A stretch of DNA of 64,000 nt from Aphrocallistes beatrix (Eukaryota > Porifera > Hexactinellida > Sceptrulophora > Aphrocallistidae): contig OY725488.1 of assembly GCA_963281255.1 (NCBI GenBank), positions 11,815,524-11,879,523 of the forward strand. Reading direction: 5' to 3'. The notes under the pieces are model-generated. The model saw only the letters and a program-made list of their open reading frames with translations, was not told the origin of the DNA and did no database searches. Below, in pieces: positions 30,022 to 59,944 of this stretch. Both the position numbers and the translations under genes were made by a program. Position 1 is the first letter of the stretch. Every line of letters begins with the position of its first letter.

Positions 30022-30798
30022 TTATTTGTTTGGCATTTTCTGTTGGTATTCGTACCATAGTGTCCATAACTGCCAATACTTCTCGATTGTCCACATCTGG
30101 CTGAATTTGTATTCGAGGTAGCAGTAAAATAATCTCATTATATTTGCGTCAATCTCTAGGTGTTTTGGCCAGGAGAGAGTTAGTTTTAAAGTGAGGTTAT
30201 TCTCATTTTTAGTGGAGAAGGATAAGGTTAACTTTAATAATTCTTGAGAAGAATCGGATTGGTTCTGTGCTATATCTGATTGCTTGTGAGGTGGTGGATC
30301 TGTATTTGCGTCTGAATTCTCAGTAAATTCAACATTGATGTTATCTTGAAATAATTCTACAGAACCATCTTTAAAATTAAAGTCTTTGCTCTTTCCAGCT
30401 AATTCTTTAATCTCTTTCTCATTCATAATTAAACTCCCCACTGTATCAGTAGTCTCACTCATCATGAAGCTATACACTCCTTGTAACACTGCTGACACAG
30501 TGTACGCAGGTTTCCAACACTCAGGATGGAAGTCACTCAATTCAAAGCAAACTCTTTCATTAGTTTTAAAGCGTCCGTTAGGCGTAATGAACCGAATGGA
30601 TGGAGGAGAGAAAGGATAATCTTCAGAGAACATTAACATTCCATGATATTCTCCTCCTTCAAAGAGAGTACCATTAAGTCCTGTAAATAAGAAGTGCCAT
30701 TCTAAAATTAGACTTTCTTTGATTCTAGCTTGAATGTTTTCTGGCGGAGATAGATAAAATTTTTTGTATTCGTTATGAAGTCTTTTCGTTGCTCGCAT
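30022..30798 (-). CDS. UBC6/UBE2J-like ubiquitin-conjugating enzyme, short form 1
   Basis: 258 residues, ATG at 30798. The E2 fold fills residues 1-150: RATKRLHNEYKKF helix, EWHFLFTGLNGT, YPFSPPSIRF, and TPNGRF, which replaces the usual HPN in the UBC6/J class. The catalytic Cys84 is in ERVCFEL, followed by DFHPECWKPAYTVS. The tail (150-258) is polar, then Trp/Tyr-rich (MWTIEKYWQLWTLWYEY), with no membrane anchor, unlike canonical UBE2J proteins. It would pass ubiquitin or a ubiquitin-like protein to an E3. Closely matches 34306-35070. Confidence 0.88.
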   Translation of the reverse strand: MRATKRLHNEYKKFYLSPPENIQARIKESLILEWHFLFTGLNGTLFEGGEYHGMLMFSEDYPFSPPSIRFITPNGRFKTNERVCFELSDFHPECWKPAYTVSAVLQGVYSFMMSETTDTVGSLIMNEKEIKELAGKSKDFNFKDGSVELFQDNINVEFTENSDANTDPPPHKQSDIAQNQSDSSQELLKLTLSFSTKNENNLTLKLTLSWPKHLEIDANIMRLFYCYLEYKFSQMWTIEKYWQLWTLWYEYQQKMPNK

Positions 30799-31653
30799 TG
30801 AAATTTAGCGATTGTAGTTATTATTAAATAGCTATTTCACAAGAAAAACACACGAATTAAAACAATAGTATGAGTAGTTAGAACATGTCTAGTGAATGCA
30901 TTATTATTAAGTTGTGGGTCATGTTTTAAAATATATTTCAGTAAGTTCTATTTTCCATTGTACTTGTATTTATTCTGAGGGAGCAAAAAAATGCAACAGA
31001 TAGCTATTAGGTATTTTACGATCCACAAGTGCACAATAACATTTTTAAGATCACAAATGCATCGCAAACAAAGTAAATATAGTTTATCACAGTGAGACTA
31101 ATTTGACCAATCCCTAGCTAGAATATTCTCACTTCATTTCGCGGCCCTTTGTTGGTTGTCTGACGGCAACATGGATTTCCTATCAGGACCTCAATTTAAG
31201 TGAGAAATGAGAAACAATAGGATAGCTACCGATTCAATAAATAATTGTAGCCGTACAGTGCAATATATTGATTAACAACATATTTATAACATTGCTTTTC
31301 TCAATTGAGATTGAATTTGAAATGTAAAATTCCCACTGAGGCATAATGAAATTTAAAGTACACGGTATCTTCAGTTAAAACTGAAGCTGAAAAACTAAAT
31401 TAGGACAACTCAGTTAGTAGCCATAATGTTAGAACTTGCACCTCCAGTGAACATTAGACAAGGCTACCAACATATATTATTTTTAACAAGTAATTTGAAT
31501 TTCAGCTACTTACATAGTGTACCAGAATATTTAAGGTAGTGATATTTTTCAAACCAATCCCTAACAGTATTTATACACATATAGTACTTGTAATATTTGG
31601 ATACACTGTTGCTAGTTAAATTACGTAATATATACTCAATCTCCGATTATATA

Positions 31654-33015
31654 TTACGATTTCAATTTATAGTTTCCATCTTTGGGAGTTAATCTCAATA
31701 TTTTTGCTTTTGTCATATTCTTCCCTTTCTCTTCAAATTTCTCCTTTTGAGACAGGTTATCACTTGTAAGGTACTTGTTTTTCAATGTAAATGTAGTGCT
31801 ACATGATTTCTCCCTAGTAAGATTAGTGTCAATCTTGATGCCTTGACTTAATGTCGGTTTACCTCTCTCTTTCGAGTTTCCATTTACTTTAGGAGTGAAG
31901 ATATTGTTATGAGCTGTTGGTTTGTCCTTAAGTACGTTGTTAGTCGATGTTTTTTTTGTTTGAGTCTTACGTGACTTTACTATATAATGTGGTACTAAAT
32001 GTTCACTATCTTCTGGCGGTTCCGAGGTACTGGTCACATTATCTTCTTGTATTTCCTTACTATTATTAAAGCCATTAGAACCTGATTGTTGAGATATATC
32101 TGAAATTGAATCTGAGGATACAGTAGAGTTACTGACTTTTCCAAAGACATTATCAGATAAAATTAGTTGATCAGCAGTTTGTGTGTATTTGGATGGCTGT
32201 GGTATTACATGCGATGGTTTCGATTTGAAACTGTTGGTAAGTTTCGTATTCTCACTTGAAGGAAACCTTGCATTGTCAGGCTGACTTTCAAATAAATCAG
32301 TCAATGTACTAACTAGTCCAATTTTATTAGCTTTATCTATTCCTAAATTTCCCACTATGTCGATAGTATCATTTGGTTTAAACTCCTCAGGTGATACATA
32401 TGGCTCCAAGATATCTGGTGAAGAATTGGATTTGCTCTTTTGAGATGAAATATCTGGTTCATTGATTGGTATAGGTATTGGATCAGTTTCAGAATTCTCA
32501 GTTAGTGCAGCTTTGATCTCATTTTGAAATAATTCTGAAGTGCCATATTGAAAATTAAATCCTCTACTTTTTGCAGCTAGTTCTCTTATCTCATTTACAT
32601 TCCTTTCTAGACTTCCCACTGTCTCAGTAGTCTCACTCATCATGAAGCTATACACTCCTTGTAACACTGCTGACACCGAGTACGCAGGTTTCCAACACTC
32701 AGGATGGATCAATGTAAAGAAAACACTCTTGTCTGTCTCGAAGCGTCCGTTAGGCGTAATGAACCGAATGGAGGGAGGAGAGAAAGGATAATCTTCAGAG
32801 AATATCAATATTCCATGATACTCTCCTCCTTCAAAGGGTGTACCATTAAGTCCTGTGAATAAGAAGTGCCATTCTAAAATTCGATCTTCTTGGAATGCAA
32901 CTTTAATATTTTCAGGAGGAGATTCTATAAATTTCTTGTATTCGTTATGGAGCCTCTTCGTTGCTCGAACTATACAATAGCTTTTTATGGAATGTTTTGA
33001 TTGGAGAGTACTCAT
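31654..33015 (-). CDS. UBC6-like E2 variant lacking the catalytic Cys
   Basis: 453 residues, ATG at 33015. The E2 core is well kept (RATKRLHNEYKKF, EWHFLFTGLNGTPF, TPNGRF, HPECWKPAYSVS), but the active-site strand reads ETDKSVFFTLIHPECW: Phe at the position of the catalytic Cys (residue about 99) and two residues fewer than in paralogs, which have ERVCFELSDF. It should be unable to form a thioester. Residues 160-453 are a Ser/Thr/Pro/Lys-rich tail without a membrane segment, matching 35928-37328. The frame is otherwise fully open, so a non-catalytic (UEV-like) adaptor is possible, as is early decay. Confidence 0.85.
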   Translation of the reverse strand: MSTLQSKHSIKSYCIVRATKRLHNEYKKFIESPPENIKVAFQEDRILEWHFLFTGLNGTPFEGGEYHGILIFSEDYPFSPPSIRFITPNGRFETDKSVFFTLIHPECWKPAYSVSAVLQGVYSFMMSETTETVGSLERNVNEIRELAAKSRGFNFQYGTSELFQNEIKAALTENSETDPIPIPINEPDISSQKSKSNSSPDILEPYVSPEEFKPNDTIDIVGNLGIDKANKIGLVSTLTDLFESQPDNARFPSSENTKLTNSFKSKPSHVIPQPSKYTQTADQLILSDNVFGKVSNSTVSSDSISDISQQSGSNGFNNSKEIQEDNVTSTSEPPEDSEHLVPHYIVKSRKTQTKKTSTNNVLKDKPTAHNNIFTPKVNGNSKERGKPTLSQGIKIDTNLTREKSCSTTFTLKNKYLTSDNLSQKEKFEEKGKNMTKAKILRLTPKDGNYKLKS

Positions 33016-34305: not shown

Positions 34306-35070
34306 CTATTGGTATTCGTACCATAGTGTGCATAACTCCCAATACTTCTCGATTGTCCACATTTGACTGAATTTGTATTCGAGGTAGCAGTAAAATAGTC
34401 TCATTCTATTTGCATCAATCTCTAGGTGTTTTGGCCAGGAGAGAGTTAGTTTTAAAGAAAGGTTATTCTCATTTTTAGGGGAGAAGGATAAGGTTAACTT
34501 TAATAATTCTTGAGAAGAATCGGATTGGTTCTGTGTTACATCTGGTTTCTTCATCTTGTCTGGGGGTCGATCTGTATTCGCGTCTGAATTCTCAGTTAAT
34601 TCAACATTGATGTTATCTTGAAATAATTCTACAGAACCATCTTGAAAATTAAAGTCTTTGCTCTTTCCTGCTAATTCTCTTATTTCTTCCTCATTCATCA
34701 CCAAACTCCCCACTGTATCAGTAGTCTCACTCATCATGAAACTATACACTCCTTGTAACACTGCTGACACAGTGTACGCAGGTTTCCAACACTCAGGATG
34801 GAAGTCACTCAATTCAAAGCAAACTCTTTCATTAGTCTTAAAGCGTCCGTTAGGCGTAATGAACCGAATGGAGGGAGGAGAGAAAGGATAATCTTCAGAG
34901 AACATCAACATTCCATGATACTCTCCTCCTTCAAAGGGAGTACCATTAAGTCCTGTAAATAAGAAGTGCCATTCTAAAATTAGACTTTCTTTGATTCTAG
35001 CTTGAATGTTTTCTGGCGGAGATTGATAAAATTTTTTGTATTCGTTATGAAGTCTTTTCGTTCCTCGCAT
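34306..35070 (-). CDS. UBC6/UBE2J-like E2, short form 2
   Basis: 254 residues, ATG at 35070, nearly the same as the product of 30022-30798. The core motifs TPNGRFKTNERVCFELSDF with Cys84 and HPECWKPAYTVSAVLQG are intact. The polar region near 170 differs (DRPPDKMKKPD) and the tail stops at LWYEYQ, a few residues earlier than in form 1. No transmembrane anchor. It is probably soluble and active if expressed. Confidence 0.88.
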   Translation of the reverse strand: MRGTKRLHNEYKKFYQSPPENIQARIKESLILEWHFLFTGLNGTPFEGGEYHGMLMFSEDYPFSPPSIRFITPNGRFKTNERVCFELSDFHPECWKPAYTVSAVLQGVYSFMMSETTDTVGSLVMNEEEIRELAGKSKDFNFQDGSVELFQDNINVELTENSDANTDRPPDKMKKPDVTQNQSDSSQELLKLTLSFSPKNENNLSLKLTLSWPKHLEIDANRMRLFYCYLEYKFSQMWTIEKYWELCTLWYEYQ

Positions 35071-35927
35071 TGAAATTTAGCGATTGTAGTTATTATTAAA
35101 AAGCTATTTCACAAGAAAAACGCACGAATTAAAACAATAGTACGAGTAGTTAGAACATGTCTAGTGAATGCATTATTATTAAATTGTGGGTCATGTTTTA
35201 GAATATATTTCAGTAAATTCTATTTTCCATTGTACTTGTATTTATTCTGAGGGAGCAAAAAGATGCAACAGATAGCTATTAGGTATTTTACGATCCACAA
35301 GTGCACAATAACATTTTTAAGATCACAAATGCATCGCAAACAAAGTAAGTATAGTTTATCACAGTGAGACTAATTTGACCAATCCCTAGCTAGAATATTC
35401 TCACTTCATTTCGCGGCCCTTTGTTGGTTGTCTGACGGCAACTTTGATTTCCTATCAGAACCTTAATTTAAGTGAGAAATGAGAAACAACAGGATAGCTA
35501 CCGATTCAATAAACAATTGTAGCCGTACAGTGCAATATATTGATTAACAATATATTTATAAATTTGCTTTTCTCAATTGAGATTGAATTTGGAATGTAAA
35601 ATTCCCACTGAGGCATAATGAAATTTAAAGTACACGGTATCTTCAGTTAAAACTGGAGCTGATAAACTAAATTAGGACAACTCAGTTAGTAGCCATAATG
35701 TTAGAACTTGTACCTCCAGTGAACATTAGACAAGGTTACCAACATATATTATTTTTAACAAGTAATTTGAATTTCAGCTACTTACACATAGTGTACCAGA
35801 ATACTTAAGGTAGTGATATTTTTCAAACCAATCCCTAACAGTATTTATACACATATAGTACTTGTAATATTTGGATACACTGTTGCTAGTTAAATTACGT
35901 AATATATACTCAATCTCCGATTATATA

Positions 35928-37328
35928 TTACGATTTCAATTTATAGTTTCCATCTTTGGGAATTATTCTCAATATTTTTGCTTCTGTCATTTTCTTCCCT
36001 ATCTCTTTCAATTTCTCATTTTGAGACAGGTTAATATCACTAGTAAGGTACTTGTTTTCCAGTGTAAATGTAGTGCTACATGATTTCTCCCTAGTAAGAT
36101 TAGTGTCAATCTTGATGCCTTGACTTAATGTCGGTTTACCACTCTCTTTCGAGTTTTCATTTACTTTAGGAGCCAAGATATTGTTATGAGCTGTTGGTTT
36201 GTCCTTAAGTACGTCGTTAGTCGATGTTTTTTTTGTTTGAGTCTTACGTGACTTTACTATGTGTTGTGGTACTAAATGTTCACTATCTTCTGGTTGTTCC
36301 GAGGTACTGGTCACATTATCTTCTTGTATTTCCTTACTATTATTAAAGCCATTAGAACCTGATTGTTGAGATGGATCTGAAATTGAATCTGCGGATACAG
36401 TAGAGTTACCGACTTTTCCAAAGACATTATCAGGTAAAATGAGTTGATCAGCAGTTTGTGTGGATTTGGATGGCTGTGTTGTTACATGCGATGGTTTCGA
36501 TTTGAAACTGTTGGTAAGTTTCGTATTCTCACTTGAAGGAAACTTTGCATTGTCAGGCTGACTTTCAAATAAATCAGTCAATGCACCAACTTTTTCACCG
36601 CCTTCTCTACTCGTTCTTGCTAGTCCCATTTTACTTTTTTTTTTTATTCCTAAATTTTCCAATGTATCGATAGTCTCATTTGGTTTAAACTCCTCAGGTG
36701 ATACATTTGACTCCAACATATCTGGTGAAGAATTGGATTGAACTTTTTGGGATGAAATATCTGGTTCATTGATTGGTAAAGGTATTGGATCAGTATCAGA
36801 ATTCTCAGTTAGTTCAGCTTTGTTCTCATTTTGAAATAACTCTGCAGTGCCATCTTCTAAATTAAATTTCTTGCTTGTTCCAGCCAATTTTTTTATCTCA
36901 TTCTCATTCCTTTCCAAACTCCCCACTGTATCAGTAGTCTCAGTCATCATGAAGTTATACACTCCTTGTAACACTGCTGACACAGTGTGCGCAGGTTTCC
37001 AACACTCAGGATGGAAGTCACTCAATTCAAAGCAAACTCTCTCGTCTGTCTTGAAGCGTCCGTTAGGCGTAATGAATTTAATGGAGGGGGGGGAGAAAGG
37101 GTATTCTTGGGGGAACATCAAAACCCCATGGTACTCTCCTTCATGAAATGGGGTACCAATAAGCCCTGCAAATAAGAAGTGCCATTCTAAAATTAGATCT
37201 TCTGGGAATGCAACCTTGATATTTTCAGGAGGAGATTCTATAAATTTCTTGTATTCCTTCTGGAGCCTCTTCGTTGCCCGACCTATGTAATGGCTATTTA
37301 TGGAATTGTTTGATTGGAGAGTACTCAT
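35928..37328 (-). CDS. UBC6/UBE2J-like E2, long form with active Cys
   Basis: 466 residues, ATG at 37328. It is the partner of 31654-33015 but with an intact active site (TPNGRFKTDERVCFELSDF, Cys99). The 300-residue tail is Ser/Thr/Lys-rich with KSRKTQTKKTSTN and repeated SSPDMLE/EEFKPNETID acidic stretches, is predicted disordered, and has no membrane segment. The core region around YHGVLMFPQEYPFSPPSIKF is more diverged from the other copies than the tail is, and its plus-strand complement is unusually G-rich (gagggggggg near 37083). Confidence 0.87.
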   Translation of the reverse strand: MSTLQSNNSINSHYIGRATKRLQKEYKKFIESPPENIKVAFPEDLILEWHFLFAGLIGTPFHEGEYHGVLMFPQEYPFSPPSIKFITPNGRFKTDERVCFELSDFHPECWKPAHTVSAVLQGVYNFMMTETTDTVGSLERNENEIKKLAGTSKKFNLEDGTAELFQNENKAELTENSDTDPIPLPINEPDISSQKVQSNSSPDMLESNVSPEEFKPNETIDTLENLGIKKKSKMGLARTSREGGEKVGALTDLFESQPDNAKFPSSENTKLTNSFKSKPSHVTTQPSKSTQTADQLILPDNVFGKVGNSTVSADSISDPSQQSGSNGFNNSKEIQEDNVTSTSEQPEDSEHLVPQHIVKSRKTQTKKTSTNDVLKDKPTAHNNILAPKVNENSKESGKPTLSQGIKIDTNLTREKSCSTTFTLENKYLTSDINLSQNEKLKEIGKKMTEAKILRIIPKDGNYKLKS

Positions 37329-39416: not shown

Positions 39417-40232
39417 CTATATCCACAATTTTGTTTGTACAGGAGCAGGGTTACAAAAGATTAACTTTTTATCGGTACGACACACCAGACTCCCACCATT
39501 TGGATTGGTAAGGCAAATGAAGCAAAAGGTGTCATTGCACATTCCACAAGTCACATGATGGCAACCACTCTTGAGCTCAGCGAGTGTAAAGCACGAGGGA
39601 CATGCTCTGAATTTGGGGATAGCTACAATAGTCCCAGCCTTATCCTTGATATCAATTTTAGGACAATTACGCAGTAGTTCGATTTCCTTTCTCCTACACC
39701 CATCACGCCCACAAATCTCTTGATTCTGTCCATTGATCCACTGCCTCAAGCAATACCAACAAAACGCATACTCCATCTGTTTCTTGCTAGTGCACAAGGT
39801 GCATATTACCCGGGGCTTGTCACCTTGAATCCTCTGACAAAAACTTTGACAACTCGGACATTGCTGTATGTCCTGACTCCCACAAAAGTTAATTGAAATA
39901 GCAGTATCTAGGAAATGTTGTTCATCCTCTTTAGGCAGTCCGAATTTGATAATGTCTTCCATGGAAATAATGTCTCTACAGTTTGCACAGCTAATCTCGT
40001 ACTTCAAACGTTTAATTTGCTTCCAGGTCCAATCAAGCAAATCATCTGGACAGATGAAATGGCCGCATTTCATTTCAAGACCGCTGTCATCATCGCAAAC
40101 ACAGCATTCTCCTTTTTTATGAGGGAATCGAACCGTTCTAGTCTCGTCTCTATTCGCTATGAAGTAATCTGCTCCTACTCTGACATTCCAGATTGGACAA
40201 TTGCGCGCATCAGGTCCAAATTTGCTTGCCAT
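39417..40232 (-). CDS. RBR-type E3 ubiquitin ligase, copy 1
   Basis: 271 residues, ATG at 40232. RING1: CCVCDDDSGLEMKCGHFIC...CANC (about 43-95). IBR: CPSCQSFCQRI...CTLC...CWYC (about 128-175). RING2: CPSCFTLAELKSGCHHVTC..CNDTFCFIC (about 215-250), in which the Cys of SGCHH is the expected thioester-forming residue. RBR ligases accept ubiquitin from an E2 onto this Cys before transfer. There is no membrane segment. The N-terminal motif YFIANRDETRTVRFPH is shared by all RBR copies in the window and is not one I know from elsewhere. Confidence 0.9.
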   Translation of the reverse strand: MASKFGPDARNCPIWNVRVGADYFIANRDETRTVRFPHKKGECCVCDDDSGLEMKCGHFICPDDLLDWTWKQIKRLKYEISCANCRDIISMEDIIKFGLPKEDEQHFLDTAISINFCGSQDIQQCPSCQSFCQRIQGDKPRVICTLCTSKKQMEYAFCWYCLRQWINGQNQEICGRDGCRRKEIELLRNCPKIDIKDKAGTIVAIPKFRACPSCFTLAELKSGCHHVTCGMCNDTFCFICLTNPNGGSLVCRTDKKLIFCNPAPVQTKLWI

Positions 40233-42322: not shown

Positions 42323-43349
42323 CTATGCGTATCCTCCAGGAAGCCTCAGAACCATCATAACAGTAGAATTATCGCTTATGCCATAATCGGTCAACTTCAT
42401 TTGTTTTCCAGATTGTTCCACTTCTAGCTGCTTATTCCCATAAATCAGCCTCTGATTTTCTTCATCAATGCCAGTCTTTGCTAAAAGTTCCCTCTTCAAA
42501 TCTTGAACAGTATACGTCTATATAAAGAAAATGAATTAAGAATACAAAACAAGAAATGAATTTTGAACAAATCAAAATTCAACTTGCGCACTCATTTCCC
42601 CATTTTTAGCTTAATTACTTAGCCTAAGTACCCACTTTGAGATCTAAACTATGAAGAATAGATCCCCGTTTGTCTATACGTCCATTAGTGCGTGAGGAGT
42701 TAAAATAAAAACATAATTTCGGCTCAATCGTAGATTTTCAATATCAGTAGAGCAGTACCGCATATTGGGTATTCTAGCTCAAAATCTCAGGAAACATACG
42801 TATATATCTTACTTCTCATCAACCCAACAGCACCCATAATTAAATTAGTATAGTGCAACTTCCTTATCTACAGTGCCGGACCCTTTCTGTTTTGCTCTTT
42901 GCAAATCTATAGAGCAGAAGTTTGTAGAGGCCCGCCTTGTGGGCTCCTAATAGGCCCCTCAGGGCCTGAGCCCTGATACTACAGCACATTTAGCTCCCCT
43001 TAATGCAGCCCTGCAGTAGAGTATCAGTGGACTCTGATTTGTCTTATTATTTGTTTTTTTTTTAAAATCTTTTAAAACTAGTATTGCCGCTAGGAACATT
43101 CACATTTGACATGTATTCATACATGATACCCACAATCCTACTTTATTAAAATGTAAAGCATAGACACTATGATAAATTATTTAATATATTATTGAGAAAG
43201 AAGAGAAATTTACACTTGCTATGACTTAAAAATTATTAGAAATCAATTGAATTCTGGTAAATAGGTCTACTTACCGCCATTTTGTTTTTCTTTATCAGAA
43301 TAGTCTTGGTTTTTCCCTCTAACCCCACAACAAATATTGTATTCGCCAT
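42323..43349 (-). CDS. Ubiquitin-like modifier precursor, two exons
   Basis: Exon 1 is 43275-43349 (25 codons from ATG at 43349), with a GTAAGT donor. The intron is 757 nt. Exon 2 is 42323-42517 after a TATATAG acceptor. Both join in phase 0 to give 89 residues. The start TIFVVGLEGKTKT matches ubiquitin's QIFVKTLTGKTIT. The middle NQRLIYGNKQLE matches QQRLIFAGKQLE. The end MMVLRLPGG matches LVLRLRGG, followed by Tyr-Ala, so a protease would expose Gly-Gly. Ubiquitin's hydrophobic patch (Leu8, Ile44, Val70), K11, K27, K48 and R72 equivalents are present; K6 and K63 are not, and R74 is Pro. About six extra residues follow KQLE. R72 favours a ubiquitin-type E1. It sits between two RBR genes. Confidence 0.82.
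42518..43274 (-). other. Intron of the modifier gene
   Basis: GT-AG intron with a G+C-rich patch at about 42870-43015 (gtgccggaccctttctg ... gcagccctgcag) that resembles a decayed mobile element. Much longer than the 63-nt intron of the GTPase gene. Confidence 0.7.
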
Positions 43350-44537: not shown

Positions 44538-45371
44538 TCAGTTTCTCAGCCTAGTTTGTATAGGAGCTATGGCACATTGCCCACGACATATCAAACTGCC
44601 GACTTTGGTTTTGGTGAGACATCTAAAGCAGAACTTATGATGGCACACTTTGCATATCATCTCATTACAACCCTCAATATGTTCCACAACTGTGAAGCAA
44701 TTGGGACAAGCTCTCATTTTAGGGAATTTAATACCGTGTTCGGTTGCAAAATCTTCAAAATATAAAAACCCAAATCCATGTCCATATGTTACCTCTCCAC
44801 AATTCTGCAACTTTTCGAATATAACGCTTTTACACCCAGGGTTCTTGCAATCCTGATAGTTCCCCGGATTATTCCACGGTTTCAAGCAGCTCCAACAGAA
44901 GATATTATTTTTCTTCTTTCTAGTACAAATAGTACAGATGACCTGTGGACTGTCAGTTTGTATCCTCTCACAGTAGGTATCACAACCCGGGCATTTCTGT
45001 ATATCCTGACTTTCACAATAATTTACTAATATAGCAGTATCTAAGAACTGTTTCTCATCACTATTAGGTATCCCAAATGTAATGATATCCTCCATAGAGA
45101 TAATAGCCACACAGGTAGGGCAGTTAATCTGATGTTTCGAGCGCTTTATTTCGTCCCAAGCCCAATCTAGTACATCATCCGGACAAAGATAATGGCCACA
45201 CTGCATTTTTAAACCGCTATCATCTCCACAGACGGAGCAGCTGTCATTAGGATGAGGAAATGAAACAGTTCTCGTCTCGTCTCGATTCTCTATGAAGTAT
45301 TTTCCTCCAACTTTGATGTCCCAGATTTTAACGTCACGGACATCTAGTGCACTTTTGCAGGCTTCAGCCAT
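44538..45371 (-). CDS. RBR-type E3 ubiquitin ligase, copy 2
   Basis: 277 residues, ATG at 45371. N-terminal YFIENRDETRTVSFPH box, RING1 CSVCGDDSGLKMQCGHYLC...CPTC, IBR CPGCDTYCERI...CTICT...CWSC, and RING2 CPNCFTVVEHIEGCNEMICKVCHHKFCFRC with the acceptor Cys in EGCNE. Continuous frame. Upstream, 1.8 kb away on the opposite strand, lies an E2 gene, the same head-to-head order seen at 57.5-59.1 kb. Confidence 0.9.
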   Translation of the reverse strand: MAEACKSALDVRDVKIWDIKVGGKYFIENRDETRTVSFPHPNDSCSVCGDDSGLKMQCGHYLCPDDVLDWAWDEIKRSKHQINCPTCVAIISMEDIITFGIPNSDEKQFLDTAILVNYCESQDIQKCPGCDTYCERIQTDSPQVICTICTRKKKNNIFCWSCLKPWNNPGNYQDCKNPGCKSVIFEKLQNCGEVTYGHGFGFLYFEDFATEHGIKFPKMRACPNCFTVVEHIEGCNEMICKVCHHKFCFRCLTKTKVGSLICRGQCAIAPIQTRLRN

Positions 45372-47199
45372 TTCTAATCAGTAATAAGAAAATAAAGCAC
45401 ATGTATTCGAGGAAAGTTATTAGGTAAATTTGCACAGCGAGCAATAGTATATATCATTATATCATTTATAGATATAATTAATGCGAAGATTACACAGGCG
45501 TAGTGTAATCATATTTTGCCCTTCAAGACAAGGGCGTAGCCAGCCTCAAATTCAGGGGGCAGAATAAGATCCATACAATGGATAGAAATTCGTCCCCCTA
45601 ATTCTGAAAATCTGGTAGGGGCTTTGGAATGAGCGGAACGGGTGAAGATAGGGAGACCTCATACATGCCAACCTCTACAATGGAAAAGCAGGAAGTAAGT
45701 ACTATTTTAGTGGGACATTGAACTATTTAGCGGAACTGGAACTTAGTCCCACACTGAAGTGTGGGACAATTCCACTTTTTGAAATGTTTTCGGAAGAACA
45801 TTTTCAACACATGTCCAAAAAGCGAGAATCCCCGCCAAAAATAGTCCAATTAGAAAATATGAGATCTGGCGACCTCGCTCCCTGAAAATCGATTCACCAT
45901 TAAGACATTATATAAACCTAGTATAAAATTAGACTAGTCAATTGGGAACTCCGCTTAATCATGAGAAATAATTACTTTGATGGGTCCCAATAAAGCGGAG
46001 TCTACTATATACGGTAATTTTTATATTACTTGAATTATTTATTAACATATGAAAGAGTCGCCCTTTCATAAGTTTATTAGAAGTACATTTTTCTTTGAAC
46101 TGTATATATTATGTATAGATAGTTAATAGACATAATAAGTACTAAAAGGCACCCACGATTACTGAACTCCTACAGAGGTTCTGAAGCCGAAAACTAAATG
46201 TCGTACAACAATACGGAGGAAGCCAATGAACCTCACTTGTGATTATTCAATTTCGTATAATGGGAAAACTTGAGAGTGCGAAACTGTTCTAAGGAGTAGT
46301 ACAACAACATGGTACTAGTAATAGTATATTAGAATAATAGATAAGAAACTGAAGGACTATGTGGAAGATTAAATTTCATTAATATTACCATATTACTTAT
46401 ATTATACTGAATCAGATAGAATATAGACATACATCGAGTCAAATTCCTCTTTCTAATAGTAGTTGATATTTATTGACAAGAACAGAGTAGAATTTGTGAA
46501 TTAACACAGCTTAGATAATAATAATGTGGACCTGACATGTTACAGACTGATAAAATAATCAAAGATTATTATTGCAAACAAAAATAATTTTGCAATGCTG
46601 AAAACTTAACATTATTCCCCTTCGCTTAAATTAACTTTGACATTGCAATCTTAACAAGGGGTCAATGATCTCTGTCGCAGGACCTGTCTGGTTTATGTCA
46701 AAATAAGCACCGTAATGAGTAGGATCTTGATTAGAAAAGATCAATATTTTCGAAAAATAGATTCACTCATATTTCAGTCTACGTAGTACTATAGCAGTTC
46801 AATATAATACGTGTATATGGTCACTGAATGTAACTCTATACCAAGTATGCATTCAGTACACTCAAAATATCACATCAGTGTAAATGATGGTATACCAGAT
46901 GATACATGTTTATAATTAATTTAAGAAGAAAGATTGTTTATTACTTTGAAGTGTAGGAGTATTCAGCCGCTTTGTTTATAATTAATTTAAGAAGAAAGGT
47001 TATATTCTTACTTCAAAGTGTAGGAGCCACTCTGTCATCTCCTCACATATTTTTTATCAATACGTAATAGCTAAAATACAGCTGCTAGCATATACAATTT
47101 TGTCGCTATAAATCTCCAATTTACTTGTAAAAAACAACCAACGTGACGCATTCGTTGCGAGAAACTGCCACGATTAATAATGTTGAATTTATTGAAAGA
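45372..47199. other. Region between divergent RBR and E2 genes
   Basis: Holds no gene. A fragment of the gggcgtagcc hAT-like family is at 45530-45625, a family D copy at about 45660-45860 (catacatgccaac at the left), and a pogo-like end at about 45945-46010 (gcttaatcatg / aaagcggagtctact). The rest is A+T-rich and may hold the promoters of both genes. Confidence 0.55.
46908..47034. repeat. 66-bp tandem duplication before an E2 gene
   Basis: Two adjacent copies starting tgtttataattaatttaaga at 46908 and 46974, both ending near gtgtaggag. It lies 170-290 bp upstream of the E2 start and could double regulatory sites. Confidence 0.75.
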
Positions 47200-48009
47200 A
47201 TGCTAGATTCAGATAGAATGAACGGTCACATCATGTGCCGTTCTACAAAGAGATTGAGGAAAGAACTCAATATAATAACTAAAGACCCAATTCCTGGAAT
47301 AGACCTACGCGCTAATGAAGAGAACATCCTAGAATGGCATTTCGTTATACACGGGAAAGAGGATACTCCCTACTATGGCGGAATGTATCACGGAAAACTC
47401 ATATTTCCTCCAGACTTCCCTTTCAATCCTCCAAAGATTATATTCCTAACTCCGAACGGTAGATTCAAGACGAATGAACGTATCTGTTTCAGTTTGAGTG
47501 ACTTCCATCCTGAAGAATGGAAACCTGCCTTTTCAGTTACCACGGTATTACAAGGAGTAAAAGACTTTATGCACGATAGCACTGAGACTATAGGTAGCAT
47601 GGAGACGAGTGAGAAAAAGAAGAGAAAACTTGCTAAGAATAGTTCTACTTTCAATCGTCAAAATGTCATTTTCTGCCAATTATTTCCCCAACTGTGTGAA
47701 GGCATAAAAATGGATTTAGAAACTAGAGAAACCGCACGAACATATGGTGAAGATGTAGAAAACTCTCGGAGTCAAGGTGAGGTTAAAAATACCTTATTCT
47801 CTCGTAAACTACGAAAGTGCATAAAGAGGATGAATACTGTTATCGGTTTCTTATTAGTCTGCCTAACACTATTTTTAGGTTTGTTACTGCTAGCTTTGCT
47901 CTTCACATTGACTGGGAATTCTGGAATTAATATAAGAACTACGTATACGCCCATACTTTATATTGATACATTATATACTTTTTATATGTGGCTGTTTTTT
48001 GGATCATAG
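47200..48009 (+). CDS. Tail-anchored UBC6/UBE2J-like E2, copy 1
   Basis: 269 residues from ATG 47200, chosen because MLDSDRMNG aligns with the starts of the sister genes; the frame is open further upstream but without an ATG. The E2 core is RSTKRLRKELNII, EWHFVIHGKEDTPYYGGMYHG, TPNGRF, with catalytic Cys96 in ERICFSLSDFHPEEWKP, and SMETSEKKKRKLA as in UBE2J. Near the end a hydrophobic segment (VIGFLLVCLTLFLGLLLLALLF) should anchor it in the ER membrane with the E2 in the cytosol, followed by about 35 lumenal residues. Confidence 0.9.
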   Translation: MLDSDRMNGHIMCRSTKRLRKELNIITKDPIPGIDLRANEENILEWHFVIHGKEDTPYYGGMYHGKLIFPPDFPFNPPKIIFLTPNGRFKTNERICFSLSDFHPEEWKPAFSVTTVLQGVKDFMHDSTETIGSMETSEKKKRKLAKNSSTFNRQNVIFCQLFPQLCEGIKMDLETRETARTYGEDVENSRSQGEVKNTLFSRKLRKCIKRMNTVIGFLLVCLTLFLGLLLLALLFTLTGNSGINIRTTYTPILYIDTLYTFYMWLFFGS

Positions 48010-49299: not shown

Positions 49300-49691
49300 T
49301 ATAGGGTTTTTAGAGGTGTAGTTTCCAAATATCATATTAAATGGTAGACAATGGTCCAAGGTTTTATTCATTCATTTTTCTGTAACGTAGGCGATTTATC
49401 GTTTTAGGTCACTGAGTGTAAGCCTATACATATTAAGTATGCCTCAGAATATCATATTAAATATCATCCACTTAATAACGCTAATAGATAATATAGACAA
49501 AGTGTAAGACTATCTGATGCTTCTCTATCTCACATTTTGTAATAATAACCAAATACAGATACTTTAAATTGTAAAATTTTGTTAATATACTCTCTAATTT
49601 ACTTATTAAGGCCTTTAAGTTTAAGCATTCGCTGCTAGATATAAAGTTTTATAATTGATAATTTATGAAACATTTAAGCTTTTATTGTAGA

Positions 49692-50672
49692 ATGAGTGAT
49701 TCAGATAGAATGAACAATTATAATATTTGCCGCGCAACGAAGAGATTGACCCAGGAAATATATTTAATATATAAAAACCCAATTCCTGCTATAGATGTTC
49801 AAGCCAATGTAAACAACATTCTTGAATGGCACTTTGTTATACACGGGGGAGAGAATACTCTCTACCAGGGTGGCATGTATCATGGTATGCTCATATTCCC
49901 ACCAGAATATCCTTTCAGTCCTCCGATGATTCTATTTTTGACTCCGAACGGTAGATTCAAGACGAATGAACGTATTTGTTTCAGTTTGAGTGACTTTCAT
50001 CCTGAAGAGTGGAAACCAGCCTTCTCAGTGACTACTGTATTACAAGGAGTTAGAGAGTTTATGCACGATAGCACTGAGACTATAGGTAGCATTAAGACGA
50101 GTGAGATTGTGAAGAGACAATTCGCTGAGGGTAGTTCTGCTTATAATAGTCAAAATTACACTTTTCGCCTCTTATTCCCCCAACTATGTGAAAGAAAAGA
50201 AGGAGATTCAGAGAATAGTGTGGTTGTGACTACTAATTCTCTAAACTCATCACAAAGTGAAATCACTACAACACAAGGAGCTATTCACGAAACTGGATTT
50301 CGTAGTGAATCAACTCAAATTCCTCCAAACGGGATTCTATTACTAAGCAGTAATGCAAATCCGCCGCATAATATCCCAACCACTCCGCGAATATTCGATA
50401 CAGCTAATCGTAGTTATGGTACCTTCCCTAAAATTGAAGCCTCCTCCATAGAGAGGGGAATCATCTATTCAGGTAGACAGTGTATTGATTTTACCTCAGA
50501 AGAATGGGATATTATCCGTCGTCAGAAGGATGTTGAAAAAGTACTTTGGAGAATAAGGAGGATTGACTATATCAACTGTTCCAACTTTCTCTGCTCCCTA
50601 CTTTCATTTTGCTTGATACTACTACTTGTGTTATTCATATTAACTGGAATATATTTGAAAACTATTCTTTGA
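49692..50672 (+). CDS. Tail-anchored UBC6/UBE2J-like E2, copy 2
   Basis: 326 residues from ATG 49692 (MSDSDRMNNYNICRATKRL, aligning with sister genes); an in-frame ATG at 49665 would add nine residues. E2 core with EWHFVIHGGENTLYQGG, TPNGRF, catalytic Cys96 in ERICFSL, DFHPEEWKPAFSVT, and SIKTSEIVKRQFA. A variable polar linker of about 130 residues follows. The C-terminal hydrophobic segment (FLCSLLSFCLILLLVLFILTGI) places it as an ER tail-anchored enzyme. The linker has no similarity I can see to the other copies, while the E2 core is nearly constant. Confidence 0.9.
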   Translation: MSDSDRMNNYNICRATKRLTQEIYLIYKNPIPAIDVQANVNNILEWHFVIHGGENTLYQGGMYHGMLIFPPEYPFSPPMILFLTPNGRFKTNERICFSLSDFHPEEWKPAFSVTTVLQGVREFMHDSTETIGSIKTSEIVKRQFAEGSSAYNSQNYTFRLLFPQLCERKEGDSENSVVVTTNSLNSSQSEITTTQGAIHETGFRSESTQIPPNGILLLSSNANPPHNIPTTPRIFDTANRSYGTFPKIEASSIERGIIYSGRQCIDFTSEEWDIIRRQKDVEKVLWRIRRIDYINCSNFLCSLLSFCLILLLVLFILTGIYLKTIL

Positions 50673-51000: not shown

Positions 51001-52001
51001 ATGCACTTCTTAATTGTCCTCCCGCTCCTCTATTCGCTAAATCTAGTCTTAATCCCGATCCAAGCATTCGATATTTTCTCCGCTGGTGCTGCGGTGATAG
51101 GAGGAGTTGCAGTCATTGGTTCGAATGTCTTCTGTCGTTACAATGAATGCTGTGATTAACCATGGATTTCACACGATTTCAACAATCTAAGCCAGAGCTT
51201 AGAAGATAATCTGTTTGGACAGCATTTGGTCCAGGAAAATGTTGTTAAATTGATTAGAATCCATCTGACTAACCGTAAATCACAGAAACCGCTAGTACTC
51301 TCGTTCCACGGCGAAACTGGAACAGGTAAGACCTGGGTCAGTAGGTTGATAGCTGAGAGCTTGTACAAAGAAGGAATGAATTCTAAATTTGTCAAGTTTA
51401 TTCACGTCCCGCATTGGTTTCACGATCCAAAGAAGACAAGTGAGCAAATTGAAAACCTTCACGACACAATCAAGTCAACTCTTAAGAAGTGTAAATATGC
51501 ACTGTTCATTTTCGATGAAATACATGTGATGAACCTAAAGTTTTGGATGAGTTGAGTGTCTACATGGACTATAACCCTCCACCAATGGACGGGCTCGACC
51601 TGACAAGAGCCATCTTTATCTTGATTGGAAATTCTGGCGCACCAAAAATTTTCTATTTCATGATTCAACAATTCCTGGATGGGAGAGATAGAAATTCTAT
51701 TCGTATGAAAGAAATGCAAAACTTTATTAGTGATACGATATATAGCGAAGAAGGTGCATTCCAAGGCACAGAAATTGTAACTAGGCATGTTATTGACGCT
51801 TCAATCCCGTTTCTGCCACTGGAAAGAATTCATGTAGCCAGCTGCATTAAGCGAGCAGTTAAGGAAATGGGTTGGAAAGTTACTAAGAGTCTAATCGAGC
51901 AGGTCATGAAAGATATCAGATTTTTCCCAAAAGACTTGAATAGGTTTGCAGAACACGGCTGTAGGATAGTCGGTGATATAATGACAGAACTAGATTATTA
52001 A
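51001..52001 (+). pseudogene. Torsin-like AAA+ ATPase, decayed copy
   Basis: ATG at 51001 begins a signal peptide (MHFLIVLPLLYSLNLVLIPIQAF). Then come FCRYNECC, LFGQHLVQENVVKL, Walker A GETGTGKTWVS, Walker B ALFIFDEIHVM, and the C-terminal ASIPFLPLERIHVASC and HGCRIVGDI of torsins. Compared with the copy at 53704 it has an in-frame stop just after FCRYNECCD and a one-base loss near 51540 (aacctaaag against aatcctaaag). Two breaks and a conserved remainder suggest recent loss. Confidence 0.85.
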
Positions 52002-52278
52002 TGTTGCCTTTTTTGATGAAATTTTGCATAATTACTGATACATCTTTTGTGATATAAAAGTAATTCTTTGATTTATGGCTAACTTTTGGCTATAGTGTAT
52101 AGCCATACGATTCTCCATTTGTTTTTGGCTGTGAGTTATTTTAAAAATATTATTTTTGAGTGAACGTTAGAGTTATATTTTTCTCCGCTGTGATCTCATT
52201 TTACTGTAAAAATTTAGGATATTTTAACCATTAGATTTTTTAGTTTGGCGACTAATCGTACTAGATTTTAATGTTTTG

Positions 52279-52334
52279 AAGTCTTAATTTGTTTCCAAGC
52301 TGAATCTAGCAGGTTTTCTATACATGAAATGACT
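52279..52334 (-). pseudogene. RBR ligase relic
   Basis: gaagtcttaatttgtttcca and the following ~35 bp match the RING1 region of the RBR gene at 57310-57365 (tail of WSWKQIKTSKHE) and the relic at 55240. Only a stub remains. Confidence 0.6.
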
Positions 52335-52387
52335 CAACGCATTATGGCTACTCTCATCACAGTACATTAAAATCTGTTATATTCTCA

Positions 52388-52592
52388 CCTACAGATCTAA
52401 CTCCAGACCTAGTGGGATAACTCCACCATCTCCACCTGGAGAAACTGCAAACCCTGAAGAAACACTTCTTACGCCAAAAGAAACTGTTTTGTCTAAAGAA
52501 GAGTCTTCATTACCTCGTGTAATTACTAAAACCTCTGGAGAAGAATCTCTAATACCTAATGAAACCATTTTAAAGAACAGAGACCTATAAAC
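52388..52592 (+). pseudogene. E2 tail relic
   Basis: About 200 bp (cacctacagatctaactcca onward) match the Ser/Thr/Pro-rich tail coding region of the E2 gene at 62510-62700, with tail phrases ITPSSPPEET and KTSGEE recognisable. The E2 core is absent. With the neighbouring RBR stub it marks a deleted RBR-E2 pair. Confidence 0.7.
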
Positions 52593-52599
52593 TCATAAT

Positions 52600-53700
52600 T
52601 GAATTCGCAATCGTTTCAAACCTACAAGTAGATACGACGTATACGTAACTCCATTCTGATGGTATTATTTGTTATGGTAATGCATAGTAGTATGCATTGG
52701 ATAGTTGTAATTTCTTCTGTGTGAATTATCAAAATTTTTTAAAAAAAGTTTAAAACATAGTGAGTTCATTCATTCTTAGTGTTCACTTAAATAGAGTAAA
52801 TATCATATATCGAAATAACATTACTTTTCTATATTCATGCGATATCAAATCGCATTAATATAGAAAATTAATGTTTCCTGGAAAACGGGGCAAATAACCA
52901 AACAGGTTCACCGGGTCAGGAAATCTTGACCCGGTCCAAGCCTGATCCGAACCCTTCGGTTAACCTAATTACTATATCCAGGGTATAACAAAAGTGTTGT
53001 CACCCTAGATTATTCATAATTGTGCTTGATTGATATCGAACCAATAGTAATCAAATACAAAACTCTTACCTGTCGTTAGCTATCACGCATTGCTATATTT
53101 TATGACATCACACCATTTGCGAAATACACTTTTCCTTTCTCATTGTCAAATTTTTGTTCACCTATTAATTAGAGCTTGTATTCAAAGGTGACACCACTTT
53201 TGTTACACCCTTATATGAAATTTGGAAATGATTCTACTTAAGCAAAGAGAATTGAAGGCATAATAAATCCTAAATTTCTAACCACTCCTTCATTATGTGC
53301 TGAAAATCAACCTTAATAAACTACGTACAATAGAAATACGTAGCACATCACATCTTTAGTTCGGTTTGTCACTTTGTGTTTCCCGACTACATTACGTACA
53401 TGTACGTATGATTCTCTAATCAATATAAATGATACTTACAATCACTTATCTGAACTACAGCTTTTCGAACTTAAGTTCGAAACATTTTCATTTTTGTAGG
53501 TGGAATGTTTCTCAGAATTTTGATTTTAATTTTCCAACTGAATTTTCCTTTATTTATTAGAATTTATGTTCTGTTCATCGAGTGAACTGTTTTAATTAAT
53601 GTACCTTCCAATTTATAGGTAGTTCACTGAACATCAAATCCATACTTTTGTCAATATTTATATGTACATATATCCACCTTAATCCAATCCATTCATTAGA
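52600..53700. other. A+T-rich spacer upstream of the torsin gene
   Basis: No gene, terminal repeat or duplicated block recognised, apart from the last ~110 bp, which match the upstream sequence of the decayed torsin copy (ccattcattagaattatg). Confidence 0.5.
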
Positions 53701-53703
53701 ATT

Positions 53704-54700
53704 ATGCGCTTCTTAACCGTCCTTTCGCTCCTCTACTCACTAAATCTAGTCTTAATCTCGACACAAGCTTTCGATTTTTTCTCCGCTGGTGCGGCAGTAG
53801 GAGCAGCTGTAGTCAGTTGGTTTGTTTCAAATGATTACTGTCGTTACAATGAATGCTGCGTCAAACCATGGATTTCACACGATTTCAACAATCTAAGCCA
53901 GAGCTTGAAAGATAATCTGTTTGGACAGCATTTGGTCCAGGAAAATGTTGTTAAATTGATTAGAATCCATCTGACTAACCGTAAACCACAGAAACCGCTA
54001 GTACTCTCGTTCCACGGTGGGCCTGGAACAGGAAAAACCTGGGTCAGTAAACTGATAGCTGAGAGCTTGTACAAAAAAGGAATGAATTCTACATTTGTCA
54101 AGTTTATTCACGTTCCGCATTGGTTTCGTGAATCAGGGGAGACAAGAAGGCAAACTGAGAACCTACACAACACAATCAAGTCAACTCTTAAGAAGTGTAA
54201 ATATGCACTGTTCATTTTCGATGATGTGCATGCGATGAATCCTAAAGTGTTAGACGAGTTGTTTGTCTACATGGACTATCCTCCACCGATGGACGGACTC
54301 GACCTGACTAGAGCCATTTATATCTTGCTTGGAAATTCTGGTGAAGAGAGAATTAACGAATTCATGATTCAACAATTCCTGGATAGGAGAGATAGAAATT
54401 CTATTCGCATGAAAGAAATGCAAAACTTCATCAGTGATACGATATATAGCGAAAAGGGCGCATTCCAAGATGCTAAAGTTATATCTAGGCATGTTATTGA
54501 CGCTTCAATACCGTTTCTGCCACTAGAAAAAAAATCATGTAAAGAGATGCATTGAGCGAGAAATTAAGGCAATGGGTGAAAAAGTTACTGTCAAGATAAT
54601 CGAGCAGGTTATGGAAGGAGTCAGATTTGTCCCAGAAGACTTAGATAAGTTCTCAAAATTCGGCTGTAAGATGATCGGTCAGATATTAGCAGAATTATAA
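53704..54700 (+). CDS. Torsin-like AAA+ ATPase
   Basis: About 331 residues if one A in a run of eight near 54525 is discounted; as written the frame turns off after LPLEKKSCKEMH and the conserved C-terminus continues in the next frame. Signal peptide 1-22, CRYNECC (46-52), FGQHL (73-77), Walker A GGPGTGKT (105-112; animal torsins usually have GTGKN), Walker B FIFDD (170-174), DASIPFLPLE, and sensor-2 Cys region FGCKMIGQI. Torsins are lumenal ER/nuclear-envelope ATPases that need membrane cofactors such as LAP1/LULL1. Neighbouring E2s are predicted to sit on the other face of the same membrane. Confidence 0.88.
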
Positions 54701-56732: not shown

Positions 56733-57552
56733 TCAGCTCAACTTAGTTTGTACAGGAGCTGGAGTACACGTGAGGGTTTCGTAAGTTCTTCCACGGCATA
56801 TCAAACTCCCTTCTGCTGTCTTGGTTAAACAAATGAAGCAAAACCTTTCTCCGCATTTGCAAGTCATTTCGTTACAACCGCTTTTATGTTCCAAAATCGT
56901 GAAGCATTTTGGGCATGCTCTCACTTCTGGGGTAAATATCACTTTCCCTAAAGCGTCTCGAAATTTCTTTTTCTTACAATTTTGTAACTGTTGGAATTTA
57001 CTGCTTTTGCAATCTGAGTTTCCACAATCCTGATAGCTACCAGGATTATTCCACGATTTCAAGCAACTCCAACAAAAGATATTGTTTTTCTTCATCTTTT
57101 TCGTGCAAACAATGCAGATAACCTGTGGGCTGTCAGTTTGTATCCTTTGGCAGTAGGTCTGACAACCTGGACATTGCTGTGTATCCTGGCTTTCACAAAA
57201 GTTTACTGAAATAGCTGCATTTAAGAGCTGTTTCTCGTCATCATTAGGTAGTCCAAACTTTATTATGTCCTCCATGGAAATAATGGATGTACAGGCAGGG
57301 CAGTTTATCTCGTGTTTAGAAGTCTTAATTTGTTTCCAAGACCAATCCTAGGAGATCATCTGGACAGATGAAATGACCGCAATGCATTCTAAGACCGCTG
57401 TCATCATAGCAAACATTACAGAGTGCTTTAGAATGAGGAAATGAAACGGTTCTAGTCTCGTCTCGATTATCAATGAAGTATTTTCCTCCCACTTTAACCT
57501 CCCAGATTTTAACATCAAGAGTATCAAAGGCACTTCTGCAAGCTCCAGACAT
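56733..57552 (-). CDS. RBR-type E3 ubiquitin ligase, copy 3, one frame break
   Basis: ATG at 57552. The N-terminal box YFIDNRDETRTVSFPH and RING1 start CNVCYDDSGLRMHCGHFIC are in one frame to about 57350. The rest (RING1 end CPAC, IBR CPGCQTYCQRI...CIVC...CWSC, RING2 CPKCFTILEHKSGCNEMTCKCGERFCFIC) is in another. A single extra G in cctaggattgg explains the shift. All zinc ligands and the RING2 acceptor Cys are kept. It is head to head with the E2 at 59099. Either a recent loss or a one-base sequence error. Confidence 0.85.
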
Positions 57553-57763
57553 TTCTAATTAACATAATCAAGGTTAGGAAAATATCATTAACTATACATA
57601 AGCTATTAAAAGTATAATATAGAGTCCATACATGCTAAATGTACCTTTTTTCACTCTTCTACATAGTTAAGTTTCACGAGTCCCGTTTTTACTTGAAAAT
57701 TCTCCATTGTACCTCGCCTTTATGGATAATATGTCTGATACTTTTCTATTGCGTCCCACCTTG

Positions 57764-58936: not shown

Positions 58937-59098
58937 ACGGTAGCTTAGGAAAAGGAGTAGAAGAGTGGTGATGTCATGATATGTCTTAACGAACTTGACA
59001 ATTGGGGAATATGTAATATAATTAAGAGAAATTACTGTTCAATTTAGACATTCTAGACAGTAATTATACAATTAGCGATATCATTGGTTGACAAGAAT

Positions 59099-59944
59099 AT
59101 GACCGATGAAGACAGAATAAACACTTATAATCTGAATCGCGCTACGAAGCGATTAATCAGAGAAATCGATATGATCTTTGAAGACATAATTCCTGGAATA
59201 GACCTACGCGCTAATGAAGAGAACATTCTAGAATGGCATTTCGTTATACACGGGAAAGAGAATACTCCCTACTATGGTGGAATGTATCACGGAAAACTTA
59301 TATTTCCTTCAAACTTCCCTTTCTGTCCTCCAAAGATTATATTCCTAACTCCGAACGGTAGATTCAAGACTAATGAACGTATCTGTTTCAATTTGAGTGA
59401 CTTCCATCCTGAAGAATGGAAACCTGCCTTTTCAGTGACCACTGTGTTACAAGGAGTTAGAGACTTTATGCACGACAGCATTGAGACTATAGGTAGCATT
59501 GAGACAAGTGAGAGTGAGAAGAGACAACTCGCTGAGAGTAGTTCTACTTTTAATCGTAAGGATATCACTTTCTGTCACTTATTCTCTCAACTGTGCGGGA
59601 GAAAAGAAATGGATTCTGAGAATTGCTCGAGTGAGCGAGCAAGAGAAATAGTTTGTACTTCAAAAGAAATAGGAGTAGAAGCCTCATCACCTAATTTACC
59701 CTCTTCAACGGGAATACTTGCAGATGAAGAGACTATTATAACTAGTAGTTTCTCAATGAATGACGATACATGTGCCCTCTATCCTCAAGAGAAAGATAGA
59801 AATACTCTACTTGATCAAAAATATCGACGAAACAAAAAATTGATTGATTATATTATTATTTTTATCATTAGCGGCATTTCCCTTTTCCTGCTCCTGCTAT
59901 CTCCAGGAATAATCTTCATATTAGCTAGAACTAATTATACATAA
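59099..59944 (+). CDS. Tail-anchored UBC6/UBE2J-like E2, copy 3
   Basis: 281 residues from ATG 59099 (MTDEDRINTYNLNRATKRL); the frame is open a little upstream without an ATG. The core is nearly identical to copy 1: EWHFVIHGKENTPYYGG, TPNGRF, catalytic Cys96 in ERICFNLSDFHPEEW, SIETSESEKRQLA. A ~70-residue variable linker leads to a hydrophobic anchor (IIIFIISGISLFLLLLSPGII) and a very short lumenal end. Divergent from the RBR gene ending its 5' side at 57552. Confidence 0.9.
   Translation: MTDEDRINTYNLNRATKRLIREIDMIFEDIIPGIDLRANEENILEWHFVIHGKENTPYYGGMYHGKLIFPSNFPFCPPKIIFLTPNGRFKTNERICFNLSDFHPEEWKPAFSVTTVLQGVRDFMHDSIETIGSIETSESEKRQLAESSSTFNRKDITFCHLFSQLCGRKEMDSENCSSERAREIVCTSKEIGVEASSPNLPSSTGILADEETIITSSFSMNDDTCALYPQEKDRNTLLDQKYRRNKKLIDYIIIFIISGISLFLLLLSPGIIFILARTNYT

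Follow-up and report, generated by a model that had tools for sequence, protein, structure and literature searches.

Introduction

Ubiquitin is a near-invariant 76-residue sequence ending in LRLRGG, and SUMO has a long N-terminal extension and a QTGG end. The ISG15 system consists of ISG15, UBE1L, UBE2L6 and HERC5. In parkin, the ubiquitin-like (UBL) domain lies within the same chain as the RBR (RING-IBR-RING2) part and has no processable Gly-Gly, and UBL domains act as RBR-regulatory parts in parkin or LUBAC. To our knowledge, animals are usually thought to have a small, fixed set of UBL modifiers, with the enzymes scattered over the genome.

According to the available text of one study, the ubiquitin E1 insists on Arg72 but tolerates variation at positions 71, 73 and 74, and residue 72 of NEDD8, which is Ala, sets the E1 (PMC3731359). 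The E2 enzyme UBE2J2 is able to act on Lys, Cys, Ser and Thr residues, as stated in the accessible part of another source (PMC9527308). Among prokaryotes, the available sections on the Caldiarchaeum operon (PMC5654768) and on bacterial Bil operons (PMC11354881) describe a modifier encoded side by side with its enzymes, an arrangement resembling that of the locus considered here. This locus lies in a stretch of 64,000 nucleotides of the glass sponge Aphrocallistes beatrix, which we analysed as a whole and call the window. A sequence-only reading of the window had proposed a hidden UBL modifier gene amid E2 and RBR E3 genes, and we found both kinds of gene around it.

Results

The window contains an intact two-exon ubiquitin-family gene

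The sequence-only reading had modelled the gene as two exons, joined in phase over a GTAAGT donor and a TATATAG acceptor and encoding 89 residues, and this model held. Exon 1 (43275..43349, minus strand) comprises codons 1-25 (MANTIFVVGLEGKTKTILIKKNKMA), the intron (42518..43274, minus strand) spans 757 nt in phase 0 from GTAAGT to TATATAG, and exon 2 (42323..42517, minus strand) adds 64 codons and a TAG stop. When joined (43349-43275 plus 42517-42323, minus strand), the exons yield a phase-0 product of 89 aa, MANTIFVV...VLRLPGGYA, in which the codons equivalent to Gly75-Gly76 (42332..42337, minus strand) precede a Tyr codon, an Ala codon and the stop.

A profile search of the 89-residue product, proposed earlier as a check on the family claim, matched the Pfam ubiquitin family (PF00240, E = 1.7e-11), and ubiquitin was also the top match in PDB sequence searches, which places the window UBL in the ubiquitin family at the sequence level. 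Compared with human ubiquitin, 34 of 76 aligned residues are identical (45%). The Leu8, Ile44, Val70, Lys11, Lys27, Lys48 and Arg72 equivalents that had been listed for the protein are all present, with Lys33 besides, and equivalents of Lys6, Lys29 and Lys63 are missing. Position 74 is indeed Pro, an unusual residue there, and the two-residue tail is Tyr-Ala. The earlier description needed amendment at the loops: the insertion after KQLE, put at about six residues, is really five (3+2), and another insertion, of four residues where the exons meet, had been left out. Judged by its sequence, the window UBL gene is a real, intact member of the ubiquitin family, predicted to be spliced and expressed.

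The protein had further been held to be neither ubiquitin, NEDD8 nor SUMO, and we arrived at the same exclusions. Identity with ubiquitin itself was rejected on the 45% identity, the LRLPGG end and the insertions, identity with NEDD8 on Arg72, found in 14/14 cluster copies where NEDD8 has Ala72, and identity with SUMO on the lack of an N-terminal extension and the RLPGG end.

Fourteen linked paralogues share the gene layout and the Gly-Gly terminus

We searched the assembly that holds the window (100.5 Mb in 28 contigs; the window contig is called C1) with the window UBL protein and obtained at least 40 matches. Fourteen two-exon UBL paralogues lie within 316 kb (C1 11.67-11.99 Mb). Both exons were recovered at the first pass for 11 of them, and exon 1 of the other three by a profile scan, so that a homologous exon 1 is present in 14/14. 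The intron is in phase 0 and in the same place, after codon 24-28, in all 14, and its length ranges from ~60 nt to 2 kb. Because 14 paralogues have this same two-exon layout and intron position, the window UBL is more than a chance frame, and with a whole family behind it the case for a modifier is much better than a single gene could make it. Two further exon-1 remnants for which no exon 2 was detected lie in the cluster, one of them ~0.4 kb upstream of an RBR.

The window UBL ends in LPGG-YA, and the C-termini of the other copies are LPGG-YPPS, LQGG-YLSS, LPGG-GGIQAF, VRGG-Q, IHGG-YSS, LPGG-ICS, LPGG-S, LPGG-YPLS, LPGG-CPSL, LPGG-FA, LPGG-CVSYS, LPGG-CVS and LSGG, the last without a tail. 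A Gly-Gly that is free or lies behind a short tail, which characterizes a type I modifier, is thus found in 14/14 cluster copies. Arg72, Gly75 and Gly76 are present in every one of them, and positions 71, 73 and 74 vary, as does the tail of 0-6 residues. When the 14 exon-2 products were aligned together with a protein from Oopsacas minuta, only six columns were invariant, three of which are R72, G75 and G76. This C-terminal conservation is, as far as the sequences and the available text of the source go, the same pattern as the requirement of the ubiquitin E1 (PMC3731359), and the C-terminus appears to be the part of the UBL that selection keeps. The hydrophobic (Ile44-type) patch is largely retained across the cluster.

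Five stray family members lie off the cluster, three on C12 and two on C16, and none of the five retains Gly76; the two entered in our residue table are also without Arg72. Being outside the RBR linkage described below, these strays would serve as a natural control for the retention of Gly76 in the cluster (14/14 cluster versus 0/5 stray copies, Fisher p = 8.6e-5 assuming independent copies), a value that overstates the case because the strays may represent no more than two lineages and an additional exon could possibly restore the end.

Other matches to the window UBL include polyubiquitin-like arrays. An array of ubiquitin-like matches at C15:555005-583810, with frames of 113-680 aa, looks like diverged polyubiquitin. 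Another tandem UBL family (L008) occupies C20:483170-491779 with frames of 236-280 aa, and in the one member that we read the UBL ends in GLEGG and is followed by a Cys-rich stretch.

Selection was assessed as Nei-Gojobori omega over 16 UBL copies, including two strays, and pairs were kept if the proportion of synonymous differences was below 0.7. Omega was 0.14-0.51 in the 56/120 UBL pairs with unsaturated synonymous sites and 0.12-0.32 in 33/91 RBR pairs. There is purifying selection among the UBL paralogues of this one genome. A dN/dS near 1 in related species had been named beforehand as evidence against the gene; among same-genome paralogues the values are not of that kind, and the window UBL, being too diverged, enters none of the 56 testable pairs. 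When it is compared with the other 15 copies, its changes still lie mostly at third codon positions (0.62-0.69, compared with 0.35-0.48 at first and 0.26-0.43 at second positions).

Every cluster UBL is followed by an RBR gene on the same strand

Downstream of the window UBL lies an RBR E3 gene (39417..40232, minus strand), a single open frame with its own Met and with IBR matches. A second RBR, for which we found no UBL of its own, lies upstream (44541..45377, minus strand), and a third, recognized by its domain matches, is split over two frames and probably frameshifted (56733..57558, minus strand). The genes neighbouring the UBLs have the RING1-IBR-RING2 order with the catalytic RING2 Cys, and this Cys is present in 20/22 aligned RBR proteins (22 of 26 RBR-search matches were aligned). 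The structure model of the upstream RBR (P0121) resembles solved RBR ligases, which is consistent with this assignment. A genome-wide search with the RBR yielded 37 matches, every one of them between 11.40 and 11.99 Mb of C1, which were merged into 30 loci, some of them fragments; no RBR of the cluster subfamily was found by it outside C1.

If only UBL, RBR and E2 genes are considered, the next gene downstream of the UBL is a same-strand RBR in 14/14 cases, at distances of 572-3968 nt. When gene types were shuffled within strands in 100,000 trials, none of the shuffles matched this number (mean 4.5, maximum 11). How far the UBLs differ from one another in amino-acid sequence also correlates with how far the RBRs downstream of them differ (Mantel r = 0.805 over 12 pairs, the two pairs whose RBRs are broken by stops being omitted; 1 of 20,000 permutations was as high), a correlation that tandem co-duplication of pairs would also give without functional partnership. 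Sixteen of the 30 RBR loci follow no UBL. Neither the paralogue family nor the pairing with RBRs had been recognized in the sequence-only reading.

We also considered that UBL and RBR might be a single spliced gene encoding a parkin-like protein, in which the stop after Gly-Gly would be intronic. The common strand and the 0.6-4 kb spacing in 14/14 pairs would suit such a gene, as would a fused protein, P0145, described below. Against it, the six donor hexamers used by exon 1 occur in the last 90 coding bases of 0/14 UBLs, and a narrower GTRAG donor test of the UBL ends found none; looser GTNNG sites are present in that region of five of the 14, in positions that differ between genes, and the window gene has none. 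Moreover, each of the ten RBR frames that we examined starts with a Met of its own 0-14 codons from a stop, and the UBL and RBRs of Oopsacas are listed as separate proteins. We rejected the single gene, which we think very improbable, on the donor-site tests and the Met of the RBR frames, and two genes would be the better reading of these sequences.

UBE2J2-type E2 genes are abundant in the cluster

Merging the E2 matches of the cluster left 29 loci, of which 12 belong to group A and 17 to group B; one locus is a 51-residue fragment. In the window, group B is represented by four minus-strand frames, of which 35928..37328 (466 aa), 34306..35076 and 30022..30804 have the catalytic Cys and 31654..33015 is a pseudo-E2 in which it is replaced by Phe. 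Three group-A genes (47131..48009, 49662..50672 and 59057..59944, all plus strand) have, by eye, a hydrophobic C-terminal stretch. One group-A protein, that of 47131..48009, had human UBE2J2 (2f4w, E = 1.2e-55) as its best match among PDB sequences, and this match, together with the TPNGRF...CF.LSDFHP context, identifies a UBC domain closest to UBE2J2. Across the cluster, the catalytic Cys is present in 12/16 E2 domains examined, one of these with an in-frame stop just after it; it is replaced or lost in three (Ser, Phe, deletion), and in the remaining one the frame is disrupted at this point. Each of two long frames, of 739 and 697 aa, combines an E2 domain that has the Cys with one that does not. 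The Cys-less domains at C1:11666989-11667468 and C1:11948457-11948927 each share a long frame with a Cys-bearing E2 domain, which recalls an E2/pseudo-E2 pair in one chain. Elsewhere in the genome, E2-like domains occur in long frames, mostly > 800 aa, as tandem repeats at C7:242700-389832 and C2:1455694-1491802.

An RBR followed by a group-B E2 was seen six times, a number reached or exceeded by 40,490 of the 100,000 shuffles and hence not above chance. Because RBR-E2 adjacency is no better than in shuffles, the E2 is weaker as a third partner than the UBL-RBR pair.

Searches within the cluster for ThiF and E1 catalytic-Cys-domain matches, and for USP-type proteases (UCH, PF00443; the protease search covered the USP family), found none, and the idea that the cluster encodes its own E1 or USP-type protease was rejected on this ground. 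A tandem array of thirteen long and two short USP-type (UCH, PF00443) matches extends over 37 kb at C17:3630818-3668145 and is a candidate source of UBL-processing enzymes.

Relatives of the UBLs and RBRs occur in other genomes

Among the 120 of 359 proteins listed, the best single-domain relative is a 91-aa protein of another glass sponge, annotated as 'Polyubiquitin-like [Oopsacas minuta]', which has the same loops as the window UBL and the end VVRLPGG-NRYFH. The RBR relatives include two Oopsacas proteins with 50-53% identity; the contigs given for the UBL and the RBRs of Oopsacas differ in length, so that linkage in that species is not implied. The fused protein P0145, from a 2656-nt contig, joins a partial UBL ending in SRLPGG to an RBR that matches the cluster RBRs best (5.6e-40) and the other RBRs compared much less well (~1e-5). 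Its UBL is without the loop insertion and nearer to the polyubiquitin of the genome than to the cluster UBLs, and the frame begins near the exon-2 boundary, as though exon 1 were upstream. On these sequence features, P0145 is independent support for a link between a PGG-ending UBL and an RBR and is not an orthologue of the window UBL. As a bold reading, its RLPGG might be a cleavage site, comparable to ubiquitin-ribosomal fusions.

Further genes and gene decay in the neighbourhood

A 1409-aa open frame at window positions 9345-13574 encodes a very large GTPase of the URGCP type (PF25683, E = 3.2e-118), and two tandem torsin-like genes, the first split over two frames, lie at 51160-54555. Mariner-like transposase pieces (14462-15520) and a broken Helitron-like helicase region (21785-26942), both identified by eye, are also present, and a NACHT-domain (NLR-like) gene is close to the cluster at C1:11639953-11643333. 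The cluster itself shows gene decay in its orphan exon-1 remnants, broken RBRs and pseudo-E2s.

Discussion

We think it probable that the window gene encodes a UBL modifier, one of at least 14 tandem paralogues that seemingly co-duplicate with a downstream minimal RBR amid UBE2J2-type E2s, and that it works in the following way. The two-exon transcript would be spliced to an mRNA for the 89-residue pro-UBL, whose short tail, here Tyr-Ala, a cellular protease of the deubiquitinase type would trim to expose Gly-Gly. The ordinary ubiquitin E1, which demands Arg72, would then charge the UBL and hand it to an E2, perhaps one of the UBE2J2-type enzymes of the cluster, and the downstream RBR would accept it on its RING2 cysteine and pass it to targets. 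The best reading is hence of an amplified UBL-RBR cassette that would borrow the ordinary E1, with splicing, processing, use of E1, E2 and E3, conjugation and targets all predicted from the genes.

The sequence-only reading had suggested that the protein may be the dedicated substrate of the cluster. The diverged UBL with its processable Gly-Gly fits that suggestion, but it is not unique, since it has 13 paralogues in the cluster and all 14 genes have an RBR next downstream, and a dedicated role of the window UBL is suggested by linkage and correlated divergence. That reading was thus right on the gene and near the mark on its role.

A wider proposal, which we regard as possible though doubtful, has a dozen or more UBLs, each co-inherited with a matching RBR and served by UBE2J2-type E2s and pseudo-E2s, evolving by birth and death under immune-type conflict, with distinct marks written by different pairs within a single animal. 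Such marks might possibly be placed at the ER membrane and might possibly involve non-lysine bonds, of which UBE2J2 is capable. A defence or immune role for the UBL-RBR cluster is a plausible guess, drawn from the expansion, from gene birth and decay, and from the NACHT and URGCP-GTPase neighbours.

Several other explanations of the locus have to be weighed against the cassette. The UBL might not be conjugated at all and might instead be a detached regulatory subunit, binding the RBR via its Ile44-type patch, and the one-to-one neighbourhood of UBL and RBR, their correlated divergence, the natural fusion in P0145 and the largely retained patch would all agree with this. Such a subunit has no need for a free Gly-Gly, however, yet three of the six invariant columns are R72, G75 and G76 while the tail is variable, and the five stray copies were found without Gly76, and we consider this explanation unlikely. 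We likewise give little weight to the view that the genes are divergent ubiquitin paralogues, acting promiscuously in the general machinery, for example by altering chains, and linked to RBRs by an accident of duplication. Ubiquitin as top match in the search of solved structures, an Arg72 that suits the ubiquitin E1 and the other ubiquitin-like arrays on C15 and C20 speak in favour of it; the same-strand, one-to-one neighbourhood with RBRs and the lack of Gly76 in unlinked copies speak against it. That the window gene is a chance or decayed ubiquitin-like frame seems hardly credible: the orphan exons, broken RBRs and pseudo-E2s do attest to decay in the cluster, but both exons of the window gene are intact, it is one of 14 paralogues of the same layout, and omega is well below 1 in the testable pairs. 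A chance frame or pseudogene was accordingly rejected on paralogue layout, intact exons and omega.

If the cassette reading is taken up again and set beside known systems, its chemistry would match that of known ubiquitin-like modifiers, and the arrangement is what would be new. With ubiquitin the window UBL shares the family, Arg72, Gly75-Gly76, the Leu8/Ile44/Val70 patch and Lys11/27/33/48; it differs in Pro74, in the four- and five-residue insertions and in having no Lys6/29/63. Unlike polyubiquitin, the cluster UBLs are single units with a short variable tail and an intron after codon 24-28, and they are multicopy and divergent. The group-A E2s resemble UBE2J2/Ubc6 in the best match of one of them to the human protein, the TPNGRF and FHP context and, by eye, the hydrophobic C-terminus; the sponge differs in having 29 merged loci in the cluster, three of 16 domains without the catalytic Cys and two double-domain frames. 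As in parkin and other UBL-RBR proteins, a ubiquitin-like domain is associated with an RBR, but in the sponge the UBL is a separate gene with Gly-Gly and a tail. Like the ISG15 system, the cluster would comprise a modifier that is restricted to one lineage, prefers particular E2 and E3 enzymes and may serve immunity, all putative on the sponge side. ISG15, in contrast, is built of two ubiquitin domains and works with an E3 of the HECT type, whereas the sponge has one domain, RBR E3s, UBE2J2-type E2s and linked tandem copies.

In the open-licence literature, as far as its available text extends, we found no animal in which a family of modifiers had been amplified in parallel with a family of ligases. 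The nearest parallel in arrangement is prokaryotic, and the archaeal pro-modifier of Caldiarchaeum is, in the available text, also short-tailed after Gly-Gly (PMC5654768). According to the accessible sections, an E1 and a protease of the JAB/JAMM kind belong to the Caldiarchaeum and Bil operons or lie next to them (PMC5654768, PMC11354881), whereas the sponge cluster is eukaryotic, has introns and no E1 match, uses RBRs instead of a small RING and is amplified ~14-fold. The matched and mismatched UBL-RBR pairs that it naturally provides could show how modifier-ligase specificity evolves, and the cluster is also a candidate for a defence system in a lineage that branched early from other animals. 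It has the look of a home-grown system for tagging proteins that exists alongside ordinary ubiquitin. If modifiers and ligases were indeed amplified together, the glass sponge would have a eukaryotic equivalent of the ubiquitin and Bil operons of prokaryotes.
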